Assembly (NCBI GenBank): GCA_017432345.1
Contig: JAFRJI010000009.1
Span: forward strand, 1-64,000
Reading direction: 5' to 3'
Length of the DNA: 64,000 nt
Origin: Bacillota bacterium
Lineage (GTDB): Bacteria; Bacillota; Clostridia; Peptostreptococcales; Anaerovoracaceae
Made by a program: the position numbers and the translations under genes. The notes under the pieces are model-generated. The model did not search any database, had not been told where the DNA came from, and saw only the letters and a list, made by a program, of their open reading frames with translations. Below, piece after piece: positions 1 to 11,700 of this stretch (position 1 is its first letter; every line of letters begins with the position of its first letter).

Positions 1-266
1 GCTTCGAATACCATATGTCTGGAGGTGTTTCCGATCTTATCTATTTCACCATAGGCTTCGATGTAGTCGCCGGCATATGTCGGTGCCAGGAATTCTACGT
101 TGTCATAAGCGCAGAAGAGACCTTCGTCTCCATCGAGCTTGATCAGCAGTTCGGTCGCAACGTCACCAAAGAGGTGTACCATGTGTGCGCCGTCAACCAG
201 TTCGCCGCCGTAGTGTGCATCTTTTGCAGACATTCTGAGTCTTAACGTTGAAGTAATCTTTTCCAT
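1..266 (-). CDS. kal: 3-aminobutyryl-CoA ammonia-lyase, partial (3' end outside window)
   Basis: The visible 88 codons read as the N-terminus of Kal, a hotdog-fold enzyme that removes ammonia from L-3-aminobutyryl-CoA to give crotonyl-CoA late in lysine fermentation. The segments [32 protein letters not shown] and [18 protein letters not shown] match what I know of this family. The ATG at 266 follows an AAGGAG site. The gene runs off the left edge and is divergent from the activator gene at 414, with a sigma-54 promoter between them. kce normally lies near kal and may be just outside the window (inference). Confidence 0.88.
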
Positions 267-381: not shown

Positions 382-397
382 GAACCGAAAATGGTTC
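382..397. promoter_or_regulatory. candidate activator-binding dyad (UAS) upstream of kal
   Basis: GAACCGAAAATGGTTC is a dyad, GAACC-N6-GGTTC (one more base pairs on each side). The same 16-bp architecture recurs at 2544-2559 and, with one degenerate half, at 2576-2591, upstream of the other sigma-54 promoter. That makes it the best candidate site for the activator encoded at 414. Confidence 0.55.
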
Positions 398-413: not shown

Positions 414-2486
414 ATGAACAGTTACGGACTCGATCGGGTGATCGCACCGAAACAGGTATTCCCCGCATCCGCATGGGAACTGGACAACAGCAGCGAATTG
501 AAATCCGGAGAGATGCGCATCAGCCTGCGACGCATACACGTGGAAAGCACCAGCTTCCGGCAGATCTGCCAGGAGGCGGCCAACGATGAGGAACTGATCG
601 GCGAAAAGATCAAAGACATCGTCATCCGCCGCGGCAAGCTCCATAATCCGGTAACGGACACAGGCGGCCTGTTTTACGGCATCATCGAGGAGATCGATAA
701 GGATTACAACAATGTCAAGGGACTGAAGGTCGGTGACGAAGTCATCTGCAACGCTTCTCTGGCCGGGGTTCCTTTGTATATCAACAGCATCACGTCTATC
801 GACAAGACGTATCCGCAGTTCGAAGCGGAGGGCTACGCGATCTGCCTGCCGGGCGTGCCGGTCATCAAGAAGCCGGACGATATGCCGATCGGGCTTTTGC
901 TTTTCGTCCTGAACGAGTCGGGAACGATCTATAAAGTGGGCCGTGAAGCGGTTGGAAAGCAGCGGTTCGCTGTCATCGGCAACAACATGCTCATGAACCT
1001 GATTTACGGGTATGCGATCCGGAACGCGACCGGCCCGGAAGCGGAGATCTACTGCGTGTTTGACCGGAATACGGAAGTCATGCTGGAAGGAGGAGGCCTC
1101 CAGGAGATCTCGACGCAGGTCTTCAATCAGGTCTCGTATCACAACCTGATGAAACCGGTGGCCTGCCTGCGTAGTTTCAGTGGCTATCCGGGCATCGACA
1201 TGGTGGTCAACTGCGCCGATATTCCGGGCGCGGAAACGGTCAGCGTCATGGCCACGAAGTCCGGCGGAACGGTGGTGTTCGCTAACTTCATGAGCAACTA
1301 CAATATGGCCCTCTACGTTACCGAGGCGATATCCCGGGACATCCGCATCACTTGCGCGGAAGGGTACCTCGAAGAGTACGACGAGTACGACTTCGACATC
1401 GTCCGCGGCATCGCTCCGTTCCTCGAGAACGCGCTGGTCAGCCGGGACAAGATGCGCCGCAAAGGCTACCGTTCCGAAACCGACAAGGCGGTCTTTGATC
1501 ACTACAACCACTATGATCTCTCGACGGCGGAAGATCTGGTGGCGGTCAGCCGCAAAATGCTCTCCGTACTGGACGAGATCATGAGCGTTTCCCGGTATGA
1601 CTGCAACGTTCTGATCACCGGGCAGACCGGCGTCGGCAAAGAAAAAGTGGCGAATATCATACAAAAAAACAGCGCCCGCAAAATGCAGCCGTTCGTCAAG
1701 ATCAACTGCGCGTCCATCTCCCCGAACCTGATGGAATCGGAGTTCTTCGGCTACGAGAAGGGGGCGTTCACCGGCGCTGATACGAAAGGCAAACGGGGCT
1801 ATTTCGAGGTGGCCGAGGGCGGCATCATTTTCCTGGACGAAGTAGGGGAACTGCCGCTGGACATCCAGGCAAAGCTCCTGCGTGTCATCCAGGACGGCGA
1901 ATTCATGCGGGTCGGCGGCACCAAGCCGGTCAAGACCAATGTCCGGATCATCTCCGCGACCAACCGGAATCTGGAGGAACAGGTCGTGAACAAAGCCTTC
2001 CGGCGCGATCTCTATTACCGGCTCAACGTATTCCCGATCAACGTCCCGTCGCTGGACGAGCGGAAGGAAGACATCCCGCCGCTCATCGACAGCTTCATCC
2101 GCAAATACAACGAGAAGTTCGGCGTCCATAAGTTCATCGATGAAGAAGCTAAGGAGTACATGGCCGGATGCAGCTGGCCAGGCAATATCCGGGAACTCGA
2201 GAACGTGACCCAGCGCCTGATGATCTCCAGCCAGAACGATACCATTACGCTGCTGGACGTGATGCGGGAACTGGGCGGCGATGTGATGGGCTCGGTCGAC
2301 ATAGAGAGCCAGATGCAGAAAGTCAATGAAGGTGACATCGACCTGACCAGCATGGTCGAATCCTTCGAGAAGGGGATCCTCCAGCAGGCCTGCGAGAAGT
2401 ACGGATCCACCAGAAAGACAGCGAAGGCCATCGGAATCTCCCAGACGCAGCTAGTCCGAAAGAAGAACAAGTACGGAATCGAGTAG
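414..2486 (+). CDS. sigma-54-dependent activator with a Kdd-like (diaminohexanoate dehydrogenase) sensor domain
   Basis: Predicted activator of the lysine fermentation genes. Residues 1 to about 345 align along their length with Kdd, encoded just downstream: both begin with a YG-x-x-RVI-x-PK motif and share the DDMP segment and overall order. The Rossmann loop that reads GGGGKSG in Kdd is GNNMLMN here (about residues 189-195), so dinucleotide binding is probably lost and the fold reused to sense a pathway intermediate (inference). Residues about 375-610 form an AAA+ sigma-54 interaction domain with Walker A GQTGVGKE (near 400), the sigma-54 contact loop GAFTGA (450-455) and Walker B IIFLDE (near 471). 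The C-terminal 30 residues are a Fis-type helix-turn-helix. No receiver, PAS or GAF domain is visible. It is divergent from kal and upstream of kdd. Confidence 0.9.
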   Translation: MNSYGLDRVIAPKQVFPASAWELDNSSELKSGEMRISLRRIHVESTSFRQICQEAANDEELIGEKIKDIVIRRGKLHNPVTDTGGLFYGIIEEIDKDYNNVKGLKVGDEVICNASLAGVPLYINSITSIDKTYPQFEAEGYAICLPGVPVIKKPDDMPIGLLLFVLNESGTIYKVGREAVGKQRFAVIGNNMLMNLIYGYAIRNATGPEAEIYCVFDRNTEVMLEGGGLQEISTQVFNQVSYHNLMKPVACLRSFSGYPGIDMVVNCADIPGAETVSVMATKSGGTVVFANFMSNYNMALYVTEAISRDIRITCAEGYLEEYDEYDFDIVRGIAPFLENALVSRDKMRRKGYRSETDKAVFDHYNHYDLSTAEDLVAVSRKMLSVLDEIMSVSRYDCNVLITGQTGVGKEKVANIIQKNSARKMQPFVKINCASISPNLMESEFFGYEKGAFTGADTKGKRGYFEVAEGGIIFLDEVGELPLDIQAKLLRVIQDGEFMRVGGTKPVKTNVRIISATNRNLEEQVVNKAFRRDLYYRLNVFPINVPSLDERKEDIPPLIDSFIRKYNEKFGVHKFIDEEAKEYMAGCSWPGNIRELENVTQRLMISSQNDTITLLDVMRELGGDVMGSVDIESQMQKVNEGDIDLTSMVESFEKGILQQACEKYGSTRKTAKAIGISQTQLVRKKNKYGIE

Positions 2487-2530: not shown

Positions 2531-2572
2531 ATAAAAAACATGCGAACCGATTTCGGTTCGCATGTTTTTTAT
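2531..2572. terminator. perfect 20-bp-arm hairpin after the activator gene, terminator-like on both strands
   Basis: A 42-nt perfect palindrome (arms 2531-2550 and 2553-2572) with a GC core flanked by A6 and T6, as in a Rho-independent terminator. It lies 44 nt after the activator stop. Its core, GAACCGATTTCGGTTC, has the same dyad found upstream of kal, so it may also be an activator-binding site. Confidence 0.75.
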
Positions 2573-2591
2573 TTAGAACCGAAAACGAATC
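2544..2591. promoter_or_regulatory. candidate pair of activator-binding dyads (UAS) upstream of kdd
   Basis: GAACC-N6-GGTTC at 2544-2559 is followed by GAACC-N6-GAATC at 2576-2591, a degenerate second copy. The copies are 32 bp apart, about three helical turns. They lie about 180-230 bp upstream of the sigma-54 promoter at 2772, a usual range for enhancer-binding proteins. The 2592-2771 stretch shows no other gene or clear element. Confidence 0.5.
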
Positions 2592-2771: not shown

Positions 2772-2788
2772 TTGGCACAACAATTGCT
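2772..2788 (+). promoter_or_regulatory. sigma-54 (-24/-12) promoter for the kdd-kam-ato operon
   Basis: TTGGCACAACAATTGCT matches the sigma-54 consensus TTGGCACGNNNNTTGCW at every fixed base except the final G of the -24 box. The start point would be near 2799, leaving a leader of about 80 nt that contains a short AAAGGC/GCCTTT hairpin and ends in AGGAGG before the kdd ATG. Confidence 0.88.
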
Positions 2789-2880: not shown

Positions 2881-3942
2881 ATGAAAAAAGGAAACCCTTA
2901 CGGAACACACAGAGTTATCTCACCGAAAGGCGTTCTGCCACAGCCTGCAGACGTAGTCGACAACACGATGGAAATCTATGACAACGAGATCCTGATCGAC
3001 GTCAAGACGCTGAACATCGACTCCGCTTCATTCACAGAAATCTGCAGACAGGTTCTGGGCAAGAAGCCGGCTGAGATCGAAACTCAGGAAGAAAAGGACA
3101 AGGTTGCACAGTGCATGAAGGATATCGTAGCGAAGGCTGGAAAGCACAAGAACCCTTGGACTGGTTCCGGCGGAATGCTGATCGGTACTGTTAAGGAAAT
3201 CGGACCTGAATGGAAGGGTGACCTGAAGGTCGGCGACAAGATCGCAACTCTGGTTTCACTGTCCCTGACTCCGCTGGTCATCGAAGAGATCCACGAGATG
3301 AGACCGGCTATCGACCAGGTCGACATCACTGGACAGGCGATCCTCTTCCAGAGCGGCATCTATGCGAAGCTTCCTGACGACATGCCGGAAGGTCTGGCAC
3401 TGTCCGCACTGGACGTTGCTGGTGCTCCTGCACAGACAGGCAAGCTGGTTCAGCAGGGCCAGAAAGTTCTCGTTATCGGCGGCGGCGGCAAGTCCGGTCT
3501 TCTCTGCCTGTATGAAGCAAAGAAGAGAGCTGGAGTAACTGGTCTGGTTGTTTGCGCAGCTGGTTCCCAGAAGTCCGAAGACAGAGCTAGAGCTCTGGAT
3601 CTGGCAGACGAATACTTCCACATGGACGCTGCTGATGCAGTCGGCATGTATGAGAAGGCTATGGAGCTGACCAATGGCGAACTGTATGACGTAGTTATCA
3701 ACTGCGTATCCATCGAGAACACTGAGATGGGCTCCATCCTCAGCTGCAAGGACGATGGTACTGTATACTTCTTCTCAATGGCTACCAGCTTCACTAAGGC
3801 TGCCCTCGGAGCAGAAGGTGTTGGCAAGGACGTTAACATGATCGTTGGTAACGGATACACGAAGGGTCACGCTGAGATCACTCTTCAGGAGCTGAGAGAG
3901 CACGAAGGCCTCAGAAAGCTCTTTGAAGAAATGTATGCATAA
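2881..3942 (+). CDS. kdd: L-erythro-3,5-diaminohexanoate dehydrogenase
   Basis: Oxidises L-erythro-3,5-diaminohexanoate to 3-keto-5-aminohexanoate (NAD-linked), the third step of lysine fermentation. At 353 residues it has the family length, an N-terminal catalytic part and a Rossmann fold with VIGGGGKSG at about 198-206. The ATG follows AGGAGG at 7-nt spacing. It is the first gene after the sigma-54 promoter, and kamA follows 55 nt later. Arginine is encoded almost entirely by AGA, unlike the CGN-rich activator gene, which suggests very high expression. The paralogous N-terminus of the activator supports the identification. Confidence 0.92.
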   Translation: MKKGNPYGTHRVISPKGVLPQPADVVDNTMEIYDNEILIDVKTLNIDSASFTEICRQVLGKKPAEIETQEEKDKVAQCMKDIVAKAGKHKNPWTGSGGMLIGTVKEIGPEWKGDLKVGDKIATLVSLSLTPLVIEEIHEMRPAIDQVDITGQAILFQSGIYAKLPDDMPEGLALSALDVAGAPAQTGKLVQQGQKVLVIGGGGKSGLLCLYEAKKRAGVTGLVVCAAGSQKSEDRARALDLADEYFHMDAADAVGMYEKAMELTNGELYDVVINCVSIENTEMGSILSCKDDGTVYFFSMATSFTKAALGAEGVGKDVNMIVGNGYTKGHAEITLQELREHEGLRKLFEEMYA

Positions 3943-3997: not shown

Positions 3998-5257
3998 ATG
4001 GCAATTAGAAACTGGAAAGACATCCCTCTTTTTAAGGATGTAACAGAAGAACAGTGGAACGACTGGCATTGGCAGGTTGCGAACAGACTGGACTCCGTTG
4101 AGAAGATCAAGCAGGTCGTCAACCTGACTCCGGAAGAAGAAGCCGACATCGAGAAAGTTATGCACGGCTTCCGCGTAGGGATCACTCCTTACTATGCTTC
4201 CCTGATGGATCCGGATGATCCTAGCTGCCCGGTCAGAATGCAGGCAGTTCCTACACTGGCTGAGACGCACAGAGGCGAAGCTGACATGCTCGACCCTCTG
4301 CACGAAGACGAAGACTCCCCGGCTCCTGGCCTGACGCACAGATATCCGGACAGAGTCCTCTTCCTGATCACTGACCAGTGCTCCATGTACTGCAGACACT
4401 GCACCAGAAGAAGACTCGCAGGTGAAACCGACGGCGCGAGAAGCATGGAAGACATCAACGCTTGCATCGACTACATCAAGAGAACTCCGGTCGTCAGAGA
4501 CGTACTGCTTTCCGGCGGTGACGCTCTCTGCGTTGAGGACGACGTACTTGAGTACATCATCAGCGAGCTGAGAAAGATCGACCACGTTGAGATCGTACGT
4601 ATCGGATCCAGAACACCGGTCGTTATGCCGCAGAGAATCACGGACAATCTGGTCAACATGCTGAAGAAGTATCACCCGATCTGGCTGAACACGCACTTCA
4701 ACCACCCGAAAGAATGGACTCCGGATGCTGCAGAAGCCTGCCGCAAGCTGGCTGACGCTGGTATTCCTCTCGGCAACCAGTCCGTACTGCTCAGAGGCGT
4801 CAACGATGACGTTCATGTCATGAGAAACCTCGTACACCTCTGCTGCAAGAACAGAGTTCGTCCGTACTACATCTATCAGTGCGACCTGTCACTGGGTATC
4901 GAGCACTTCAGAACTCCGGTATCAAAGGGCATCGAGCTGATCGAAGGACTGAGAGGACACACCTCCGGTTACGCAGTACCGACATTCGTAGTCGATGCTC
5001 CTGGCGGCGGCGGTAAGACTCCGGTAATGCCTCAGTACGTCATTTCCCAGACTCCGGACAAGGTCATCCTGAGAAACTACGAAGGCGTTATCACGACTTA
5101 CACAGAGCCTACCATGCTTCCGAAGCTGCAGTGCAGCTATGAGAACTGCAAGAACGTCGAAGACTATCGTTATGAAGGCGTTGCAGGACTGGCACAGGGC
5201 GAGAGAATGTCCATGGAACCGGCACATCTGCTGAGACACGAAAGAAACAAGAAATAA
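3998..5257 (+). CDS. kamA: lysine 2,3-aminomutase
   Basis: Radical-SAM and PLP enzyme converting L-lysine to L-beta-lysine, the first step of the pathway. The [4Fe-4S]-binding motif is C-SMY-C-RH-C with cysteines at 128, 132 and 135. The PLP lysine lies in the glycine-rich PGGGGKTPV segment at residue 340, equivalent to Lys337 of the Clostridium enzyme as I recall it. The 419-residue length is normal. A GGAG site precedes the ATG. Codon use is AGA-biased, as in kdd and atoDA, consistent with a highly expressed catabolic enzyme. kamB starts only 4 nt after the stop. Confidence 0.96.
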   Translation: MAIRNWKDIPLFKDVTEEQWNDWHWQVANRLDSVEKIKQVVNLTPEEEADIEKVMHGFRVGITPYYASLMDPDDPSCPVRMQAVPTLAETHRGEADMLDPLHEDEDSPAPGLTHRYPDRVLFLITDQCSMYCRHCTRRRLAGETDGARSMEDINACIDYIKRTPVVRDVLLSGGDALCVEDDVLEYIISELRKIDHVEIVRIGSRTPVVMPQRITDNLVNMLKKYHPIWLNTHFNHPKEWTPDAAEACRKLADAGIPLGNQSVLLRGVNDDVHVMRNLVHLCCKNRVRPYYIYQCDLSLGIEHFRTPVSKGIELIEGLRGHTSGYAVPTFVVDAPGGGGKTPVMPQYVISQTPDKVILRNYEGVITTYTEPTMLPKLQCSYENCKNVEDYRYEGVAGLAQGERMSMEPAHLLRHERNKK

Positions 5258-5261
5258 GTAA

Positions 5262-6275
5262 ATGTACCTTTTAGAAGAACTATCGCAGAAATACAAGAGA
5301 ATATCCATCGTAGGCATGGCGAAAAACGCCGGCAAAACGACAGCTCTCAACTATCTTATCGAAGAAGCCATGGATGAAGGTATCGTTCTCGGTATCACAT
5401 CCACCGGCCGGGATGGAGAGGGCACAGACGTTGTCACGGGTACTGACAAACCTCGTGTATTTCTCGATACAGACACTATCGTATCGGTGCCTACGCAGCT
5501 CTATGAACTGGCGGATGCCGGACTCGAGATCGTCAAGATGACCGACTACGGTTCCTCGCTGGGGCAGATCATGCTCTGCAGGGTCGTCAGCAGCGGTTAC
5601 GTACAAGTGGCCGGGCCGGTAATCAACGCCCAACACATAGAGATGTGTGAAGAAATGCTTCGGTTAGGTGCCCAACTGGTGCTTATAGATGGTGCGATAG
5701 ACCGGAAATCTATCGCGGCGCCGGGGACATCTGATGCGATCATCCTGTCCACAGGAGCGGTTTTATCGAGAAAAATGAGCAAGGTCGTAGAGGAGACGGT
5801 CCACACCGTCACCCTCTACCGCCTTCCTTGTCTTGAAGATGGACAGGAGAGAGATTTATTGACCGGAGAAAACGGCGAAAAAATACTGCTCATCAAAGAG
5901 GGCAAAGTGGTGACCCTTGATCGCAGCACCGGCCTGGGCGCAGGGAAATACCTGGACGCGCAGATCGATGACACGGTTTCCCACGTATTTGTTCCGGGAG
6001 CTTTTACACACAGCGTTGTAGCTGACATCAACCCTAAAAAACTGAAACACCTCACTTTCGTGCTGAAAGATCCGACGAAGATTTTCTTCGGCCCGACGAT
6101 GTGGAATCAGTTCCGGAAGAGGGGTCTGGTCGTAAAGGTCCTCGAGAACATCAAAGTGGCGGCGATCACCGTCAACCCGACCTCACCGAGCGGTTATGCA
6201 TTCGATCATGAAGAACTCGTTAACGCTATGCAAGAGGCCATCCCTGATATTCCTGTAATAGATGTGCGAATGTAG
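5262..6275 (+). CDS. kamB: KamB, P-loop protein conserved in lysine fermentation clusters
   Basis: A 337-residue protein of unproven function that accompanies kamD/E in lysine fermenters. A P-loop (GMAKNAGKTT, about residues 18-27) marks it as a nucleotide-binding protein, and I see no signal peptide or membrane segment. It starts 4 nt after kamA with no strong Shine-Dalgarno site, so translation is probably coupled. Together with KamC it could be an ATP-driven chaperone or reactivase for the B12-dependent lysine 5,6-aminomutase, an enzyme prone to suicide inactivation. That role is inferred only from position and nucleotide-binding motifs. Confidence 0.75.
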   Translation: MYLLEELSQKYKRISIVGMAKNAGKTTALNYLIEEAMDEGIVLGITSTGRDGEGTDVVTGTDKPRVFLDTDTIVSVPTQLYELADAGLEIVKMTDYGSSLGQIMLCRVVSSGYVQVAGPVINAQHIEMCEEMLRLGAQLVLIDGAIDRKSIAAPGTSDAIILSTGAVLSRKMSKVVEETVHTVTLYRLPCLEDGQERDLLTGENGEKILLIKEGKVVTLDRSTGLGAGKYLDAQIDDTVSHVFVPGAFTHSVVADINPKKLKHLTFVLKDPTKIFFGPTMWNQFRKRGLVVKVLENIKVAAITVNPTSPSGYAFDHEELVNAMQEAIPDIPVIDVRM

Positions 6276-6287
6276 GAGAATGATCCC

Positions 6288-7925
6288 ATGTCGACAGCAA
6301 ACATGAGACTGGCAAATCAAAAAACAAGACGCGAGACAGGGCTGGATTATGTAGTTTCTGCCATGAACCTGCTGACGCCGTTCGGCACGAAGCAGGTCAA
6401 AGACCAGAAACCGTTCTTCCCGGGGCAGGAGGAGGCCCTGGAACAGGAACTGGACCGGGTCGCGAAAATGGCCGAGACGGCGGAAGAGCATAGCAAGGAC
6501 ATTGGGATTTTGCAAGAGACCTTCATGATGATTAAGGACAATACGTTCACGATCGAGAGAAGTGAAAACTCCGTATTGACCGTCGTTGAGATCTTTGAAG
6601 TGAAGAACCTGATGCTGCTCATGGAGAAACTGAGAACTTTGAGCGGCAGGATCGAACTGCCGGCAGAATACGTACCGGAGGATATCACAGAACTTCTGGA
6701 TGTGCTGGATCCGGGCGGTGACCGGCTGAACACCTTTTATATCTATGATTCGTTCTCGGAAAAGCTCGCGGAGCTGCGCCGGGACAAGAAGAACATGGAA
6801 CGGGAGATCCGCAGCAGGCAAAAGGCTTCACGCGCAGAGATCAAAGATAAGTATGGGCTGATGCTCACACCGAAATTCGACATTACGGTGTCAAAGAGCG
6901 ACAGCGACAGTATAAAAAAGATTGAAGAGATTTCCGAATTGACAAAGTCGGATGAGGACTATATGTCAGTTACCTTCGTCCTCGTGGCGGACGACGCCGT
7001 GCAGGAGATGCTCCGGCAGCTCGACGGCATCACCGCGGACATCGAAGAGGAAGAACTGAACGTACGGGAACGACTGTCAAAAGAGATCCACAAATATGCG
7101 GGCGTTCTTCTCGGGAACTGCGAGCGGATCGGCAGACTTGACATGATTCTCGCAAAGGCTTTGTACGCGAAAGCACATCAGTGCGTACGGCCGGAGATCG
7201 TCAAGGAACACATCGTAGAATTCGAAGAAGGCAGGCATTTGCAGGTTGAAGAGATCATCAAGAAAAAGGGCGGAGAGTACTGTCCGGTCGGCATCTCGCT
7301 TCGCGACGGAGTGACATGCATCACCGGCGCGAACATGGGAGGCAAGACCATCTCCCTGAAACTGACCGGAATGGTCGCGATCCTCGCCCAGTATGGCTAC
7401 TTCGTACCGTGCAAAAAAGCCCGCGTCGGTCTGAGCAATTTCATGCAGATCCTGATCGGAGACAGCCAATCCATCGAACGTGGGTTGTCCAGCTTCGGCA
7501 GCGAGATGGAAGAGCTCAAGGAGATCATCGACAACAGCAAAGACCGATCGCTTCTGCTGATCGACGAGATCGCCAGCGGGACGAATCCGGTGGAAGGACT
7601 GGCTCTTACCAAGAGCATTGTCGATTATCTGAAGACGAAGACATACATTTCCCTGATAACCACGCATTTCGAAACGGTTACAGCGGACAAGGATGTCATC
7701 AATATGCAGGTCACCGGCCTTGCGAATGTGGATTTTGACAAACTGAACAGGGAGATCCGCTACGCCAACCGGCGTGAGAGGATCAACATCATCCAGAAAT
7801 ACATGGATTATAGACTGACCCGTGTGGATGATGCGGCGGAAATCCCGAAAGATGCCTTGAACATCGCGAAAATGCTGGGCATCGATAACAGCATTATAGA
7901 AAAGGCAAAAGAATATATAGTTTAA
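6288..7925 (+). CDS. kamC: KamC, MutS-like ATPase of the lysine fermentation cluster
   Basis: A 545-residue protein whose C-terminal half is a MutS/ABC-type ATPase: Walker A TGANMGGKT (about 346-354), a signature-like region around LSSFGSEMEEL, Walker B LLLIDEIASGTNP and a switch histidine in TTHFE. The mismatch-recognition domains of true MutS are absent, so DNA repair is unlikely. It lies between kamB and kamD, 12 nt after kamB. By analogy with ATP-dependent reactivators of other B12 enzymes it may exchange damaged cofactor on lysine 5,6-aminomutase (inference). The AGGAGA before ATG 6288 supports the start. Confidence 0.78.
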   Translation: MSTANMRLANQKTRRETGLDYVVSAMNLLTPFGTKQVKDQKPFFPGQEEALEQELDRVAKMAETAEEHSKDIGILQETFMMIKDNTFTIERSENSVLTVVEIFEVKNLMLLMEKLRTLSGRIELPAEYVPEDITELLDVLDPGGDRLNTFYIYDSFSEKLAELRRDKKNMEREIRSRQKASRAEIKDKYGLMLTPKFDITVSKSDSDSIKKIEEISELTKSDEDYMSVTFVLVADDAVQEMLRQLDGITADIEEEELNVRERLSKEIHKYAGVLLGNCERIGRLDMILAKALYAKAHQCVRPEIVKEHIVEFEEGRHLQVEEIIKKKGGEYCPVGISLRDGVTCITGANMGGKTISLKLTGMVAILAQYGYFVPCKKARVGLSNFMQILIGDSQSIERGLSSFGSEMEELKEIIDNSKDRSLLLIDEIASGTNPVEGLALTKSIVDYLKTKTYISLITTHFETVTADKDVINMQVTGLANVDFDKLNREIRYANRRERINIIQKYMDYRLTRVDDAAEIPKDALNIAKMLGIDNSIIEKAKEYIV

Positions 7926-7938
7926 AAGGAGAAAAAGG

Positions 7939-9495
7939 ATGAAAAGCAAACTGAACCTGGACCCGAATAAGGTCGATCATGCTCGTAAAAGTGCGAAAAA
8001 GATCGCTGAGAGCATGCAGGAATTCATCGACCGGCACACGACCGTCAGTACCGAGAGAACCATTCTCAGACTGCTGGGCGTAGACGGAGTCGATGAGGTC
8101 GACACACCGCTTCCGAACGTAGTGGTTGACCAGATCCTTGACGCGGGCGGGCTTCCGAGAGGCGTTGCTTACTGGATCGGAAACGCGATGATTCAGACCG
8201 GCAAAGAGCCGCAGGAAATCGCAGAAGAAATGGCTGCGGGCAACCTGGATATCACGAAGCTGCCGCTGGCTTCCAAAGAAGAGGCTGAAGCGAAGATCAT
8301 GCCGAAGGTGCACGACGCACTAAAGACGATCCGCGCGCAGACCGAGAAGAGAAACGAGTATCTGGCGACCATCGGCGAAGGAAGAAGACCGTATCTGTAT
8401 GTTATCGTTGCGACCGGCAACATCTACGAAGACGTTGTTCAGGCGCAGGCGGCGGCACGGCAAGGTGCGGACATCATCGCGGTTATCCGTACAACAGCAC
8501 AGTCCCTGCTGGACTATGTACCATATGGACCGACGACCGAAGGTTTTGGCGGCACCTATGCGACACAGGAAAACTTCAAGATCATGAGAAAAGCGCTGGA
8601 TGAAGTCGGCGAAGAAGTCGGCAGATACATCCGCCTTTGCAACTACTCATCCGGAATGTGCATGCCGGAAATCGCGGCAATGGGAGCTATCGAGCGTCTG
8701 GACGTTATGCTGAACGACGCACTTTACGGAATCCTGTTCCGTGACATTAACATGCAGAGAACGCTGGTCGACCAGTACTTCTCGAGAGTCATCATCGGTT
8801 ACTGCGACATCATCTTCAACTCAGGCGAGGACAACTACCTGACGACAGATGATGCTTATGAAAACGCGCATACCGTTCTGGCTTCCCAGCTGATCAACGA
8901 GCAGTTCGCGGTTCTGGCGAATGTAAGAGAAGAGCAGATGGGTCTCGGCCACGCCTTCGAAATGGATCCGGAAATCGAGAACGGATTCCTCTACGAACTG
9001 GCACAGGCAATCATGGCGCGGGAAATCTTCCCGAACGCCCCTCTGAAGTACATGCCGCCGACCAAGTACATGACCGGAAACATTTTCAAGGGCAATGTAC
9101 AGGACGCGCTGTTCAACATGATCGCGATCTGGTCGGGACAATCGCTGCAGCTGCTCGGCATGCTGACCGAAGCGATCCACACCCCGCATATGCACGACCG
9201 TTATCTCTCCATTGAAAATGCCCAATATATTTTCAACAACATGAGAGACATCGGCAGTGAAGTATACTACAAGGAAGGCGGAATCATCCAGTCCAGAGCG
9301 CAGCTCGTACTCGACAAGGCGGACAAGCTCCTGGAAGAGATCGTTGAAGAAGGTCTGTTCTCCACGATCGAACAGGGTAAGTTCGGCGGCGTCAAGAGAC
9401 CGCGTGACGGAGGCAAAGGCCTGGCAGGCGTGTGCGTAAAGGATGATGAATACTTCAATCCGTTCATTCCACTTATGTTAGGAGGTGCAGAATAA
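7939..9495 (+). CDS. kamD: lysine 5,6-aminomutase, alpha subunit
   Basis: Large subunit of the adenosylcobalamin- and PLP-dependent mutase that moves the 6-amino group of beta-lysine to C5, giving 3,5-diaminohexanoate. The 518-residue length and sequence (for example the VATGNIYEDVVQAQAAARQG and TEGFGGTYATQENFK segments) match KamD. The subunit forms the TIM barrel and most of the PLP pocket, while cobalamin and the PLP lysine come from KamE. AAAAGGAG lies before the ATG. The 3' end carries the ribosome binding site (GGAGGT at 9481) used by kamE, which overlaps this gene. Confidence 0.94.
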   Translation: MKSKLNLDPNKVDHARKSAKKIAESMQEFIDRHTTVSTERTILRLLGVDGVDEVDTPLPNVVVDQILDAGGLPRGVAYWIGNAMIQTGKEPQEIAEEMAAGNLDITKLPLASKEEAEAKIMPKVHDALKTIRAQTEKRNEYLATIGEGRRPYLYVIVATGNIYEDVVQAQAAARQGADIIAVIRTTAQSLLDYVPYGPTTEGFGGTYATQENFKIMRKALDEVGEEVGRYIRLCNYSSGMCMPEIAAMGAIERLDVMLNDALYGILFRDINMQRTLVDQYFSRVIIGYCDIIFNSGEDNYLTTDDAYENAHTVLASQLINEQFAVLANVREEQMGLGHAFEMDPEIENGFLYELAQAIMAREIFPNAPLKYMPPTKYMTGNIFKGNVQDALFNMIAIWSGQSLQLLGMLTEAIHTPHMHDRYLSIENAQYIFNNMRDIGSEVYYKEGGIIQSRAQLVLDKADKLLEEIVEEGLFSTIEQGKFGGVKRPRDGGKGLAGVCVKDDEYFNPFIPLMLGGAE

Positions 9496-10265
9496 CGGCA
9501 GAATGCAATACAGCAGTAGCTCAGATCGATCTGACGAAAGTAAAGCCATATGGCGACACGCTTAACGATGGTATGACGGAAGTAGCGTTCACGCTGCCTG
9601 TCCCTTACGGTGACGAAGCCAATGAAGCAGCAAAGATGCTGGCCAAGAAGATGGGCCTGGATGAGCCGAACGTTGTCTATGCCAAGGAGATGACCAAGGA
9701 ATACACCTTCTTCGTCGTCTACGGCAAGTGCCAGCACACCGTCGACTACACGACGATCAAAGTCGCGAAGGTCGAGGTCGATGTTATGGACAGACTGGAA
9801 TGCGCGGAGTACATCAAAGAGAACATCAAGCGTCCGGTTGTTATCGTCGGCGCTTCCACCGGTACGGACGCCCATACCGTTGGCATCGATGCGATCATGA
9901 ACATGAAGGGTTTCCACGGCCACTTTGGTCTTGAACGTTATGAAGGCATCGAAGCGTACAACTACGGATCACAGGTTCCGAACGAAGATCTGATCGCTCA
10001 CGCGAAAGAACTTCATGCAGACGCGATCCTGGTATCACAGACGGTAACGCAGAAAGACATCCACATCCAGAACCTGACCAACATGGTCGAACTTCTGGAA
10101 GCGGAAGGTATGCGTGACAAGGTCATCCTGGTCTGCGGCGGTCCTAGAATCTCACACGAACTGGCTCAGGAACTGGGTTATGACGCAGGTTTCGGCCAGC
10201 ACAAATATGCGGAAGACGTCGCATCTTTCGTTTTAACGGAAATTGTTAACCGCAACATGGTATAA
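9492..10265 (+). CDS. kamE: lysine 5,6-aminomutase, beta subunit, with apparent AUA start
   Basis: Small subunit with the B12-binding Rossmann domain. His128 in DAHTVGID ligates cobalt and Lys139, eleven residues later, forms the PLP aldimine, matching the His133/Lys144 spacing I recall for the Clostridium sticklandii protein. The first ATG in frame is at 9573, but it has no Shine-Dalgarno site and would delete the conserved KPYGDTLNDG stretch. Upstream in frame there is no ATG, GTG or TTG. An ATA at 9492 overlaps the kamD stop (ATAA) and sits 5 nt after a perfect GGAGGT, exactly where an ATGA overlap would be expected. I place the start there, giving 257 residues. A sequencing error of one base would explain it equally well. 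Confidence 0.88.
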   Translation: MTAECNTAVAQIDLTKVKPYGDTLNDGMTEVAFTLPVPYGDEANEAAKMLAKKMGLDEPNVVYAKEMTKEYTFFVVYGKCQHTVDYTTIKVAKVEVDVMDRLECAEYIKENIKRPVVIVGASTGTDAHTVGIDAIMNMKGFHGHFGLERYEGIEAYNYGSQVPNEDLIAHAKELHADAILVSQTVTQKDIHIQNLTNMVELLEAEGMRDKVILVCGGPRISHELAQELGYDAGFGQHKYAEDVASFVLTEIVNRNMV

Positions 10266-10330: not shown

Positions 10331-11056
10331 ATGTTCAACAAAATCGTAACAGCTGATGAAGCGGTTGCAGGTGTACAGGACGGCATGACCATCATGGTCG
10401 GCGGATTCCTGGGAACAGGATCCCCGGAAGTTCTGATGGATGCACTCGTCAGAAAAGGTGTCAAGCATCTGACTGTAATCGGCAACGACGGCGGTCTGGC
10501 AGAAGGCCAGCCTGCAGGCGAATTCGCAGGCAAAACCCCTAGAGGTATTGGGAAACTTCTGGAGCATCACATGGTAGATCACGTTATCATGTCACACGTA
10601 GGCGTTAACCCTCGTCTGAACGAGCAGTTCGCTGAGGGAACTCTGACTTACACGCTGGTACCACAGGGCACACTGGCAGAGAAGATCAGAGCGGCAGCTT
10701 ACGGACTCGGCGGAGTCCTCACTCCGGTAGGACTGGGAACACCGATGGAAACGGAACTGGATGAGCTCGGCAGAAAGAAGGAAGTTATGGAAATCGATGG
10801 CAAGAAGTACCTCTTCGAGAGACCTCTGCGCGCTGACTACTCTTTCATCAGAGCATCCCTGGCTGACGAATTCGGCAACTACATGTGCTCAAAGGCAACG
10901 AGAAACTTCAACATCGTTATGGCTGGAGCTTCCGACCACACCGTTATTGCAGCAGAAAAACTGGTTCCGGTCGGCCAAGAAGATCCTGACATCTGGCAGG
11001 TTGCCGGCGTACTGGTTGAATCAGTAGTGGAAGGAGAACCAAAATGGCAGATTTAA
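10331..11056 (+). CDS. atoD: butyrate-acetoacetate CoA-transferase, alpha subunit
   Basis: Alpha subunit of a family I CoA-transferase. In lysine fermentation it moves CoA from butyryl-CoA to acetoacetate, releasing butyrate and regenerating acetoacetyl-CoA. The 241-residue protein has the glycine-rich CoA loop (MVGGFLGTGSPE) and the GNDGGLAEG segment. AGAAAGG lies before the ATG. A TATAAT-like box at 10271-10276 in the gap after kamE has no good -35 partner. The beta-subunit gene overlaps the end by 13 nt, indicating coupled translation. Confidence 0.9.
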   Translation: MFNKIVTADEAVAGVQDGMTIMVGGFLGTGSPEVLMDALVRKGVKHLTVIGNDGGLAEGQPAGEFAGKTPRGIGKLLEHHMVDHVIMSHVGVNPRLNEQFAEGTLTYTLVPQGTLAEKIRAAAYGLGGVLTPVGLGTPMETELDELGRKKEVMEIDGKKYLFERPLRADYSFIRASLADEFGNYMCSKATRNFNIVMAGASDHTVIAAEKLVPVGQEDPDIWQVAGVLVESVVEGEPKWQI

Positions 11057-11700
11057 AAGAAAGAATCGCGAAAAGATGTGCGAAGCATTTTGAGGACGGC
11101 GATTTCATCAATCTCGGAATTGGCCTTCCAACTATGGTAGCTGACTATCTTCCGGAAGACGTCATCATCACCTGCCACTCCGAGAACGGATTCGCAGGCA
11201 TCGATATCCTGGCTGATCAGGATACGCTGGACGTGAACATCATCAACTCCGGCGGACAGTATGTCACTGCTCTTCCACGGGCAAAGTATTTTGACACAGC
11301 TGAGTCATTCGGTCTGGTAAGAGGCGGTCACGTAAAGGCGACCGTACTGGGCGCGATGGAAGTTGCTGAGAACGGCGACCTGGCGAACTGGATCATTCCG
11401 GGTAAAAAAGTCGCCGGCATGGGCGGTGCTATGGACCTCTGTGTAGGTTGTCCGGAAGTAATTATCACGATGTTGCACACGCAGAAGGGCGCACACAAGA
11501 TCAAGAAAGAGTGCACGCTTCCGCTGACCGCAGAAAAGTGCGTAACGGCGATCATCACGGAAATGGCAGTCATGCACGTTACCGATGAAGGCATCGTTGT
11601 CACGGAACTGCATCCTGACTACACGAAGGAAGAAGTGCAGGCAGCGACCGGTGTTCCTCTCATCTGGTCACCTGACCTGAAGCCGTACGATGAGACCTAA
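11044..11700 (+). CDS. atoA: butyrate-acetoacetate CoA-transferase, beta subunit
   Basis: Beta subunit carrying the catalytic glutamate, here Glu47 in the S-E-N-G motif, which forms the glutamyl-CoA intermediate. It has the NLGIGLPTMVADYLP segment and a normal length of 218 residues. Its ATG lies inside the 3' end of atoD after a GGAGAA site. It is the last gene of the fermentation operon and a hairpin follows. Other acyl-CoA/acid pairs are possible substrates, but the operon context favours acetoacetate and butyrate. Confidence 0.92.
   Translation: MADLKERIAKRCAKHFEDGDFINLGIGLPTMVADYLPEDVIITCHSENGFAGIDILADQDTLDVNIINSGGQYVTALPRAKYFDTAESFGLVRGGHVKATVLGAMEVAENGDLANWIIPGKKVAGMGGAMDLCVGCPEVIITMLHTQKGAHKIKKECTLPLTAEKCVTAIITEMAVMHVTDEGIVVTELHPDYTKEEVQAATGVPLIWSPDLKPYDET

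Follow-up and report, generated by a model that had tools for sequence, protein, structure and literature searches.

A putative sigma-54 activator with a proposed Kdd-type sensor domain located between lysine-fermentation genes of a Bacillota bacterium

A relative of a lysine-fermentation enzyme appears to have been turned into the sensor of a gene switch that lies between lysine-fermentation genes, in a bacterium whose relatives include gut and rumen species. The gene in question occupies positions 414 to 2,486 of a 64,000-nucleotide stretch of Bacillota bacterium DNA (GenBank assembly GCA_017432345.1, contig JAFRJI010000009.1), which is referred to here as the window and to which all coordinates apply. 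Judged from its sequence, the 690-aa product is probably a one-component sigma-54 activator with a sensor derived from L-erythro-3,5-diaminohexanoate dehydrogenase (Kdd). The basis is in silico: homology, predicted fold, domain architecture, synteny, operator-like dyads, promoter sites, and the joint loss of a sigma-54 contact motif and sigma-54 promoter sites. From these we infer that the regulator would bind the dyads, sense a ligand and be activated by it.

The Kdd-type domain and its fusion to an activator

The initial annotation had claimed that residues 1-345 are homologous to Kdd, and this was confirmed by BLASTP comparison with the Kdd encoded in the window (27% identity over 340 residues, E 1e-40), by the NCBIfam Kdd model NF052381 (E 8.7e-37; 126.8 bits, which does not reach the curated cut-off of 200) and by the solved structure 7dl3 of CcKdd, the Cloacimonas enzyme (E 1.1e-28). 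A Kdd fold is predicted along the whole length of the domain, and common fold and descent with Kdd are virtually certain. The fusion to an activator was likewise recovered, the remainder of the protein containing the Pfam domains Sigma54_activat (residues 376-542; PF00158, 226 bits), AAA lid (549-620) and HTH_50. The features of the gene, all on the + strand, are as follows:

414..2486, +: putative Kdd-domain sigma-54 activator, 690 aa, ATG to TAG
414..1448, +: N-terminal Kdd-fold domain, residues 1-345, proposed sensor
978..998, +: GNNMLMN, residues 189-195, in place of the Kdd glycine loop
1323..1325, +: E304, aligned with CcKdd Glu310
1362..1364, +: G317, aligned with CcKdd Gly323
1539..2039, +: AAA+ sigma-54 interaction domain
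1620..1643, +: Walker A motif GQTGVGKE, residues 403-410
1761..1778, +: GAFTGA sigma-54 contact loop, residues 450-455
2337..2480, +: C-terminal helix-turn-helix (HTH; HTH_50), residues 642-689

Sigma-54 is encoded in the source genome and −24/−12 promoter-like sites are present at the targets described below; ATP-driven activation of sigma-54 polymerase by the window protein is predicted.

The replacement of the dinucleotide-binding glycine loop also held over a larger set of proteins. Where aligned window-type Kdds read GGGGKSG, the window regulator reads GNNMLMN and has no GxxGxxG pattern; all three motif glycines were present in 88 of 88 Kdds and in none of the 112 regulator domains of the main set. 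Two regulators added later soften this contrast, since that of locus L197 (GANGKVG) keeps all three glycines and that of L198 reads GASSKIG. In the regulators of the lysine clade, the loop residues G202, K203 and G205 are substituted.

Much else is shared with the enzyme. R8, P12, N25, E33, F48, G74, K75, T81, G85, P120, D262, E274 and E304 are common to nearly all aligned Kdds and regulators, E304 being present in 100% of 77 lysine-clade regulators, 94% of 35 others and 100% of 88 Kdds. G317 is found in 100% of the lysine-clade regulators and of the Kdds, and at its position the 35 other regulators have Q (60%), E (20%) or G (14%). The lysine clade has a (nearly) invariant set of its own, composed of H42, E44, N113, S115, E168, N291, Y301, T303, E304 and G317. 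Kdd has other residues at the clade's (nearly) invariant H42, T46, N113, N291, Y301 and T303, and V178 of Kdd is replaced by E in 77 of 77 lysine-clade regulators; N113, N291, Y301, T303 and G317 are not kept in the 35 regulators outside the clade. The conserved lysine-clade residues other than E304 and G317 may line the pocket. We read the conserved residues as a reused pocket, which does not by itself give the identity of the ligand.

Candidate operator dyads and promoters, and the loss of GAFTGA

Both gaps flanking the regulator gene contain a GAACC-N6-GGTTC dyad, of which five exact copies occur in the assembly, as well as a sigma-54 promoter-like site:

1..266, −: kal (3-aminobutyryl-CoA ammonia lyase), divergent, truncated by the contig end; named from the orthologue at L020
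337..353, −: sigma-54 promoter-like site TTGGCATTGCTTTTGCA towards kal, a match to TTGGCAYN5TTGCW
382..397, no strand: candidate operator dyad GAACCGAAAATGGTTC, one of the five exact copies
2544..2559, no strand: candidate operator dyad GAACCGATTTCGGTTC, within a terminator-like hairpin after the regulator gene
2576..2591, no strand: weaker second dyad GAACCGAAAACGAATC, 32 bp beyond GAACCGATTTCGGTTC, with two mismatches and under the counting threshold
2772..2788, +: sigma-54 promoter-like site TTGGCACAACAATTGCT towards kdd
2881..3942, +: kdd (245 bits, cut-off 200), 394 nt downstream of the regulator gene, as initially annotated

The pattern TTGGCAYN5TTGCW has only nine matches in the 1.8-Mb assembly. 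The remaining three exact dyads of the assembly were not accepted as targets: two lie in coding sequence, and the third (L194:5121, i.e. G000:C10:9120) has a weaker sigma-54-like site 112 bp away and precedes genes of secreted-looking proteins.

Related loci were taken as the best 80 of 307 stretches encoding relatives, found in genome contigs by similarity to the window regulator. Among these 80, kal is present on the opposite strand in 75, kdd in 69 and kamA in 56, which bears out the proposed linkage of the Kdd-AAA-HTH architecture to kam genes. The loci without kal or kdd are mostly short contigs; the apparent true exceptions are L096, with no kal over 17 kb, and L149, with no kdd within 8 kb downstream. 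Dyads and promoters were counted in 77 loci (the window and 76 of the 80, four without a full-length regulator being left out), L149 yielding no gap. A dyad with at most one mismatch occurred in 122 of 142 gaps vs 11 of 2840 shuffled gaps, and an exact one in 87 gaps vs no shuffled gap. On the kdd side, 72 distances between dyad and promoter show a phasing of 11.0 bp; on the kal side, the 46 dyads that were counted are separated from the −24 element by 36-37 bp. Adjacent dyads are mostly 31-33 bp apart in a tally with some contigs counted twice. At L198, which belongs to another family, two such dyads and a sigma-54-like site precede the kdd gene.

The GAFTGA motif, which the window regulator has, is lost in 11 of the 77 loci (L120, L132, L135, L138, L139, L141, L143, L145, L150, L162 and L163), and the sigma-54 sites disappear with it. 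A kdd-side site was found in 60 of 60 loci with GAFTGA vs 0 of 10 without, and a kal-side site in 56 of 61 vs 0 of 11. The gaps of the GAFTGA-less loci still contain dyads (9/10 and 11/11). Sigma-70-like promoters, scored like the sigma-54 sites with our own weights from the consensus, are stronger on the kdd side of GAFTGA-less loci (median z 2.87 vs 0.23, p 1.6e-6); the kal side shows no clear difference (1.89 vs 0.92, p 0.053), and three of the 11 kal sides were unconvincing as sigma-70 promoters when viewed singly. Sigma-54 itself is retained in all 11 GAFTGA-less genomes and present in 29 of 30 genomes examined, the sole genome without it being that of L146, a locus with a GAFTGA-bearing regulator. 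Inspection by eye shows N in place of the Walker B aspartate in four loci (L132, L135, L139 and L150).

With the loop columns left out of the alignment, a 34-row tree requires three changes for GAFTGA loss, and a single grouping of the 11 loci was rejected (approximately unbiased test, p-AU 0.0039); branch support is good for two of the three separations but not for that of L163. According to the account in PMC10274813, loss of GAFTGA together with action at sigma-70 promoters is known for NtrC of Caulobacter and R. capsulatus and for VspR, whereas the Kdd-domain family has three changes within one family, altered target promoters at the same loci and a retained enzyme-type sensor.

Given the synteny, the sigma-54 sites, the dyads and the joint loss of GAFTGA and sigma-54 sites, it is highly probable that the regulator controls kdd and kal. 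The initially proposed control of its own pathway is upheld to this extent; as regards unrelated targets, it is the evidence of the sites that speaks against them.

Origin of the domain, candidate ligands and competing explanations

In a tree of 38 regulator domains and 16 Kdds, the two groups fell on opposite sides of a branch with 100/100 support, found in 100% of 200 bootstrap trees, so that a single fusion suffices to explain their separation. The tree has no outgroup and its root was our choice; a tree rooted with zinc alcohol dehydrogenase was set aside, its outgroup end branch measuring 8.7 changes per column and the Kdds being placed inside the regulators. The direction from Kdd to regulator is therefore taken not from an outgroup, but from the fold family, which consists of enzymes, and from the series of loops: GANGKSG in CcKdd, GANGKVG in L197, GASSKIG in L198, GAWTKLG in L041 and GNNMLMN in the window. 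The branching order of the early L197, L198 and L041 is only partly supported; all three lie near a kdd gene, L198 with one gene between.

The initial annotation had regarded the domain as a decayed copy of the enzyme. This description did not survive, because the domain is under purifying selection (ratio of non-synonymous to synonymous changes, dN/dS, of 0.03 to 0.08 in six of 11 close pairs, dS being saturated in the other five), has its own residue set, and is only 27% identical to the window Kdd, which is 53% identical to CcKdd. The regulator domain of L041 is 39% identical to Kdd. These data argue that the sensor domain is an old, conserved and separately evolving relative of Kdd, maintained rather than decaying, and not a recent copy of the adjacent kdd. 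We consider it somewhat probable that the family preserves a fossil series: one Kdd-activator fusion, early branches near kdd with all or part of the NADP loop, loss of the loop in the lysine clade, radiation of paralogues to other amino-acid pathways, and two or three changes from sigma-54 to sigma-70 with both target promoters in step.

We propose that a single fusion placed a Kdd-like domain ahead of an AAA+/HTH activator, and that in the lysine clade this domain would have kept the Kdd fold and a pocket, with E304 and G317 among the residues it has in common with the enzyme. Since the dinucleotide loop is lost, the domain would most likely bind a diamino acid of the lysine-to-butyrate pathway without turning it over. 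Ligand binding may then allow the AAA+ ring on the GAACC-N6-GGTTC dyads of both gaps to open sigma-54 RNA polymerase at two promoters, one for kdd-kamABCDE and the other for the divergent kal. That the domain is a ligand sensor without catalysis is quite likely, and the enzyme-turned-sensor idea of the initial annotation is partly supported.

The pathway, outlined in PMC3149608 as lysine to beta-lysine, 3,5-diaminohexanoate, 3-keto-5-aminohexanoate and finally butyrate, offers the first four of these compounds as candidate ligands. At L040, two related regulators lie by a kamA-like gene and genes for a coenzyme A (CoA)-transferase, a thiolase and an aminotransferase. The stretch, of 15 kb, contains neither kdd nor kamDE; kdd genes are present at another place in that genome (L041). 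This context indicates lysine or beta-lysine for that branch, and beta-lysine was added to the candidates for this reason. It seems reasonably likely that the ligand of the window regulator is lysine, beta-lysine or 3,5-diaminohexanoate.

Several points weigh against this reading. The set, being the best 80 of 307 by similarity to the window regulator, leans to the lysine clade, and many paralogues lie by genes without a visible tie to lysine, so the fold alone cannot fix the ligand. Twenty of the 142 gaps have no dyad at the set threshold, and five of the 61 GAFTGA-bearing loci (L136, L147, L152, L158 and L159) have no kal-side site. Of 60 loci with a kdd-side dyad, 17 have one within a terminator-like hairpin (the window, at 2540-2580, included; kal side 0 of 62), so part of the conservation may serve termination. 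Related loci are not independent, which means that Fisher values overstate the evidence; a pairs test leaves two supported contrasts, or three if the best tree is used, and cannot reach significance with so few. Both supported contrasts point in the expected direction for the kdd side, and an average of 1.5 of the two do so for the kal side. Finally, E304 and G317 sit at the nicotinamide site of the enzyme, and their retention fits a nucleotide role as well as substrate binding: PMC9902596 places CcKdd Glu310 and Gly323 at the nicotinamide amide of NADPH, with Glu310 in contact with it, and reports that E310G alters the substrate scope. E310 was dropped as a substrate residue because of this contact.

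The domain might thus still bind NAD(H) or NADP(H) and act as a redox sensor, an idea to which the GANGKVG loop of the early-branching L197 also lends weight. We regard it as improbable, given the absence of the glycine triad from the whole main set, the substitution of G202, K203 and G205 in the lysine clade, and the Q or E in place of G317 in most of the 35 other regulators. There is a similarly small chance that the domain forms a complex with Kdd and thereby senses how much of the enzyme is present or occupied, with no free metabolite bound; the fold common to the whole length and the position of the earliest branches (L041, L197 and L198) near kdd would suit such pairing, which is opposed by the low identity to the window Kdd (just 27%) and by the many paralogues in stretches without kdd. 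Kdd-type enzymes are multimers and sigma-54 activators require oligomerization, which would fit a mere oligomerization scaffold with no signal input. This is very unlikely, as the lysine clade has a (nearly) fixed residue set, of which N113, N291, Y301, T303 and G317 differ in other regulators. A working bifunctional enzyme and regulator, suggested by the fold and the many residues held in common with Kdd, is scarcely credible in view of the lost dinucleotide loop and the intact kdd adjoining.

Surrounding genes, paralogues and known systems

Downstream of kdd, the window continues with the genes of the same pathway:

3998..5257, +: kamA, lysine 2,3-aminomutase
5262..7925, +: kamB and kamC, aminomutase reactivase genes
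7939..10265, +: kamD and kamE, lysine 5,6-aminomutase
10331..11700, +: CoA-transferase subunits A and B

Named organisms among the best 80 loci are Emergencia timonensis, Aminicella lysinilytica, Clostridium aminobutyricum, Sinanaerobacter and [Eubacterium] infirmum; in an Emergencia-like group (L121, L124, L130, L132, L137, L153, L161 and others) two kdd genes follow the regulator. Seven loci from other families of the order (L042, L043, L045, L046, L048, L049 and L050) have another activator, about 465 aa long, ahead of kdd. The four checked with Pfam (L042, L045, L048 and L050; 463-476 aa) all have a PAS sensor, and this PAS-AAA-HTH protein shares position and pathway with the window regulator but differs in sensor and length. 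No activator was seen before kdd in three further kdd loci (L044, L047 and L051). In a survey with a threshold chosen so that plain Kdds fall below it, regulators were found in seven of 391 genomes of the class, two of the seven outside the order, and in one of 398 genomes of a phylum sample, namely the source genome.

Genomes of the family contain up to five matches each, Kdds included, among five candidates scored per genome. The contexts of 34 paralogue loci (named from profiles on one representative for most; the pyruvate-oxidoreductase-like one by eye) include CoA-transferase/thiolase/aminotransferase genes, a B3/4-domain protein with an EamA permease, NhaC-like and amino-acid permeases, and histidinol-dehydrogenase-like, D-serine-ammonia-lyase-like and pyruvate-oxidoreductase-like genes. 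Sigma-54 sites lie near many paralogues, and the same dyad occurs at L038 and L191. At L164, L169, L173 and L176, the CoA-transferase, thiolase and aminotransferase genes are accompanied by a further protein of similar size (DUF2889 in L164), possibly in a beta-amino-acid pathway. Activators at L166, L168, L178, L179, L180, L182, L186 and L190 adjoin genes for an EamA-type permease, a B3/4-domain protein or both (profiles on L166 only), a context present in a second family of the order too. A protein of about 1600 aa adjoins the activators at L172:2240-7051, L175:14086-18900 and L192:9690-14486; apart from a cytidylyltransferase-like segment (profile on L172 only), it belongs to no clear family. 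At L041, L181 and L197, the activator occurs with a Kdd gene, BKACE-type genes and a TRAP transporter, with kal in L041 and L197 too and no kamA in the fetched stretches; the Kdds of L041 and L181 are 46-48% identical to that of the window. This context perhaps serves uptake of a pathway intermediate.

Compared with characterized Kdds (PDB 7dl0, 7dl1, 7dl3 and 7dl7), the window protein has the full-length fold, as predicted here, and many invariant residues, including the equivalents of E310 and G323, but it is fused to an activator, has no dinucleotide glycine loop and scores under the NCBIfam Kdd cut-off. With the one-component sigma-54 activators of Clostridia, which carry PAS, GAF, PrpR_N, ACT and other sensors, it shares AAA+, GAFTGA and HTH, and dyads upstream of sigma-54 promoters of adjacent fermentation genes; the accessible text of PMC6615313, the source for that group, names no Kdd-type sensor and its Table 1 no lysine/kam regulon. 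PMC12316311 names COG1509, lysine 2,3-aminomutase, as sigma-54-regulated in Bacilli. The reuse of an enzyme fold as a regulator sensor has a parallel in the MocR-type regulators, with an aminotransferase-like sensor on a GntR HTH, although both the enzyme fold and the DNA-binding family are different and characterized members bind pyridoxal phosphate, as described in PMC5320631. In the literature searched, which did not extend to subscription papers and supplements, we found neither a Kdd-type activator sensor nor a regulator of this kind for lysine-to-butyrate fermentation.

The regulators described here would provide a branching series from a metabolic enzyme towards the sensor of its own pathway, with a short list of assayable candidate ligands. 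For lysine-to-butyrate fermentation, they supply candidates for the regulator, the operator and the promoters. Because GAFTGA and the sigma-54 sites of two promoters are lost together, a switch of polymerase type can be observed and tested.
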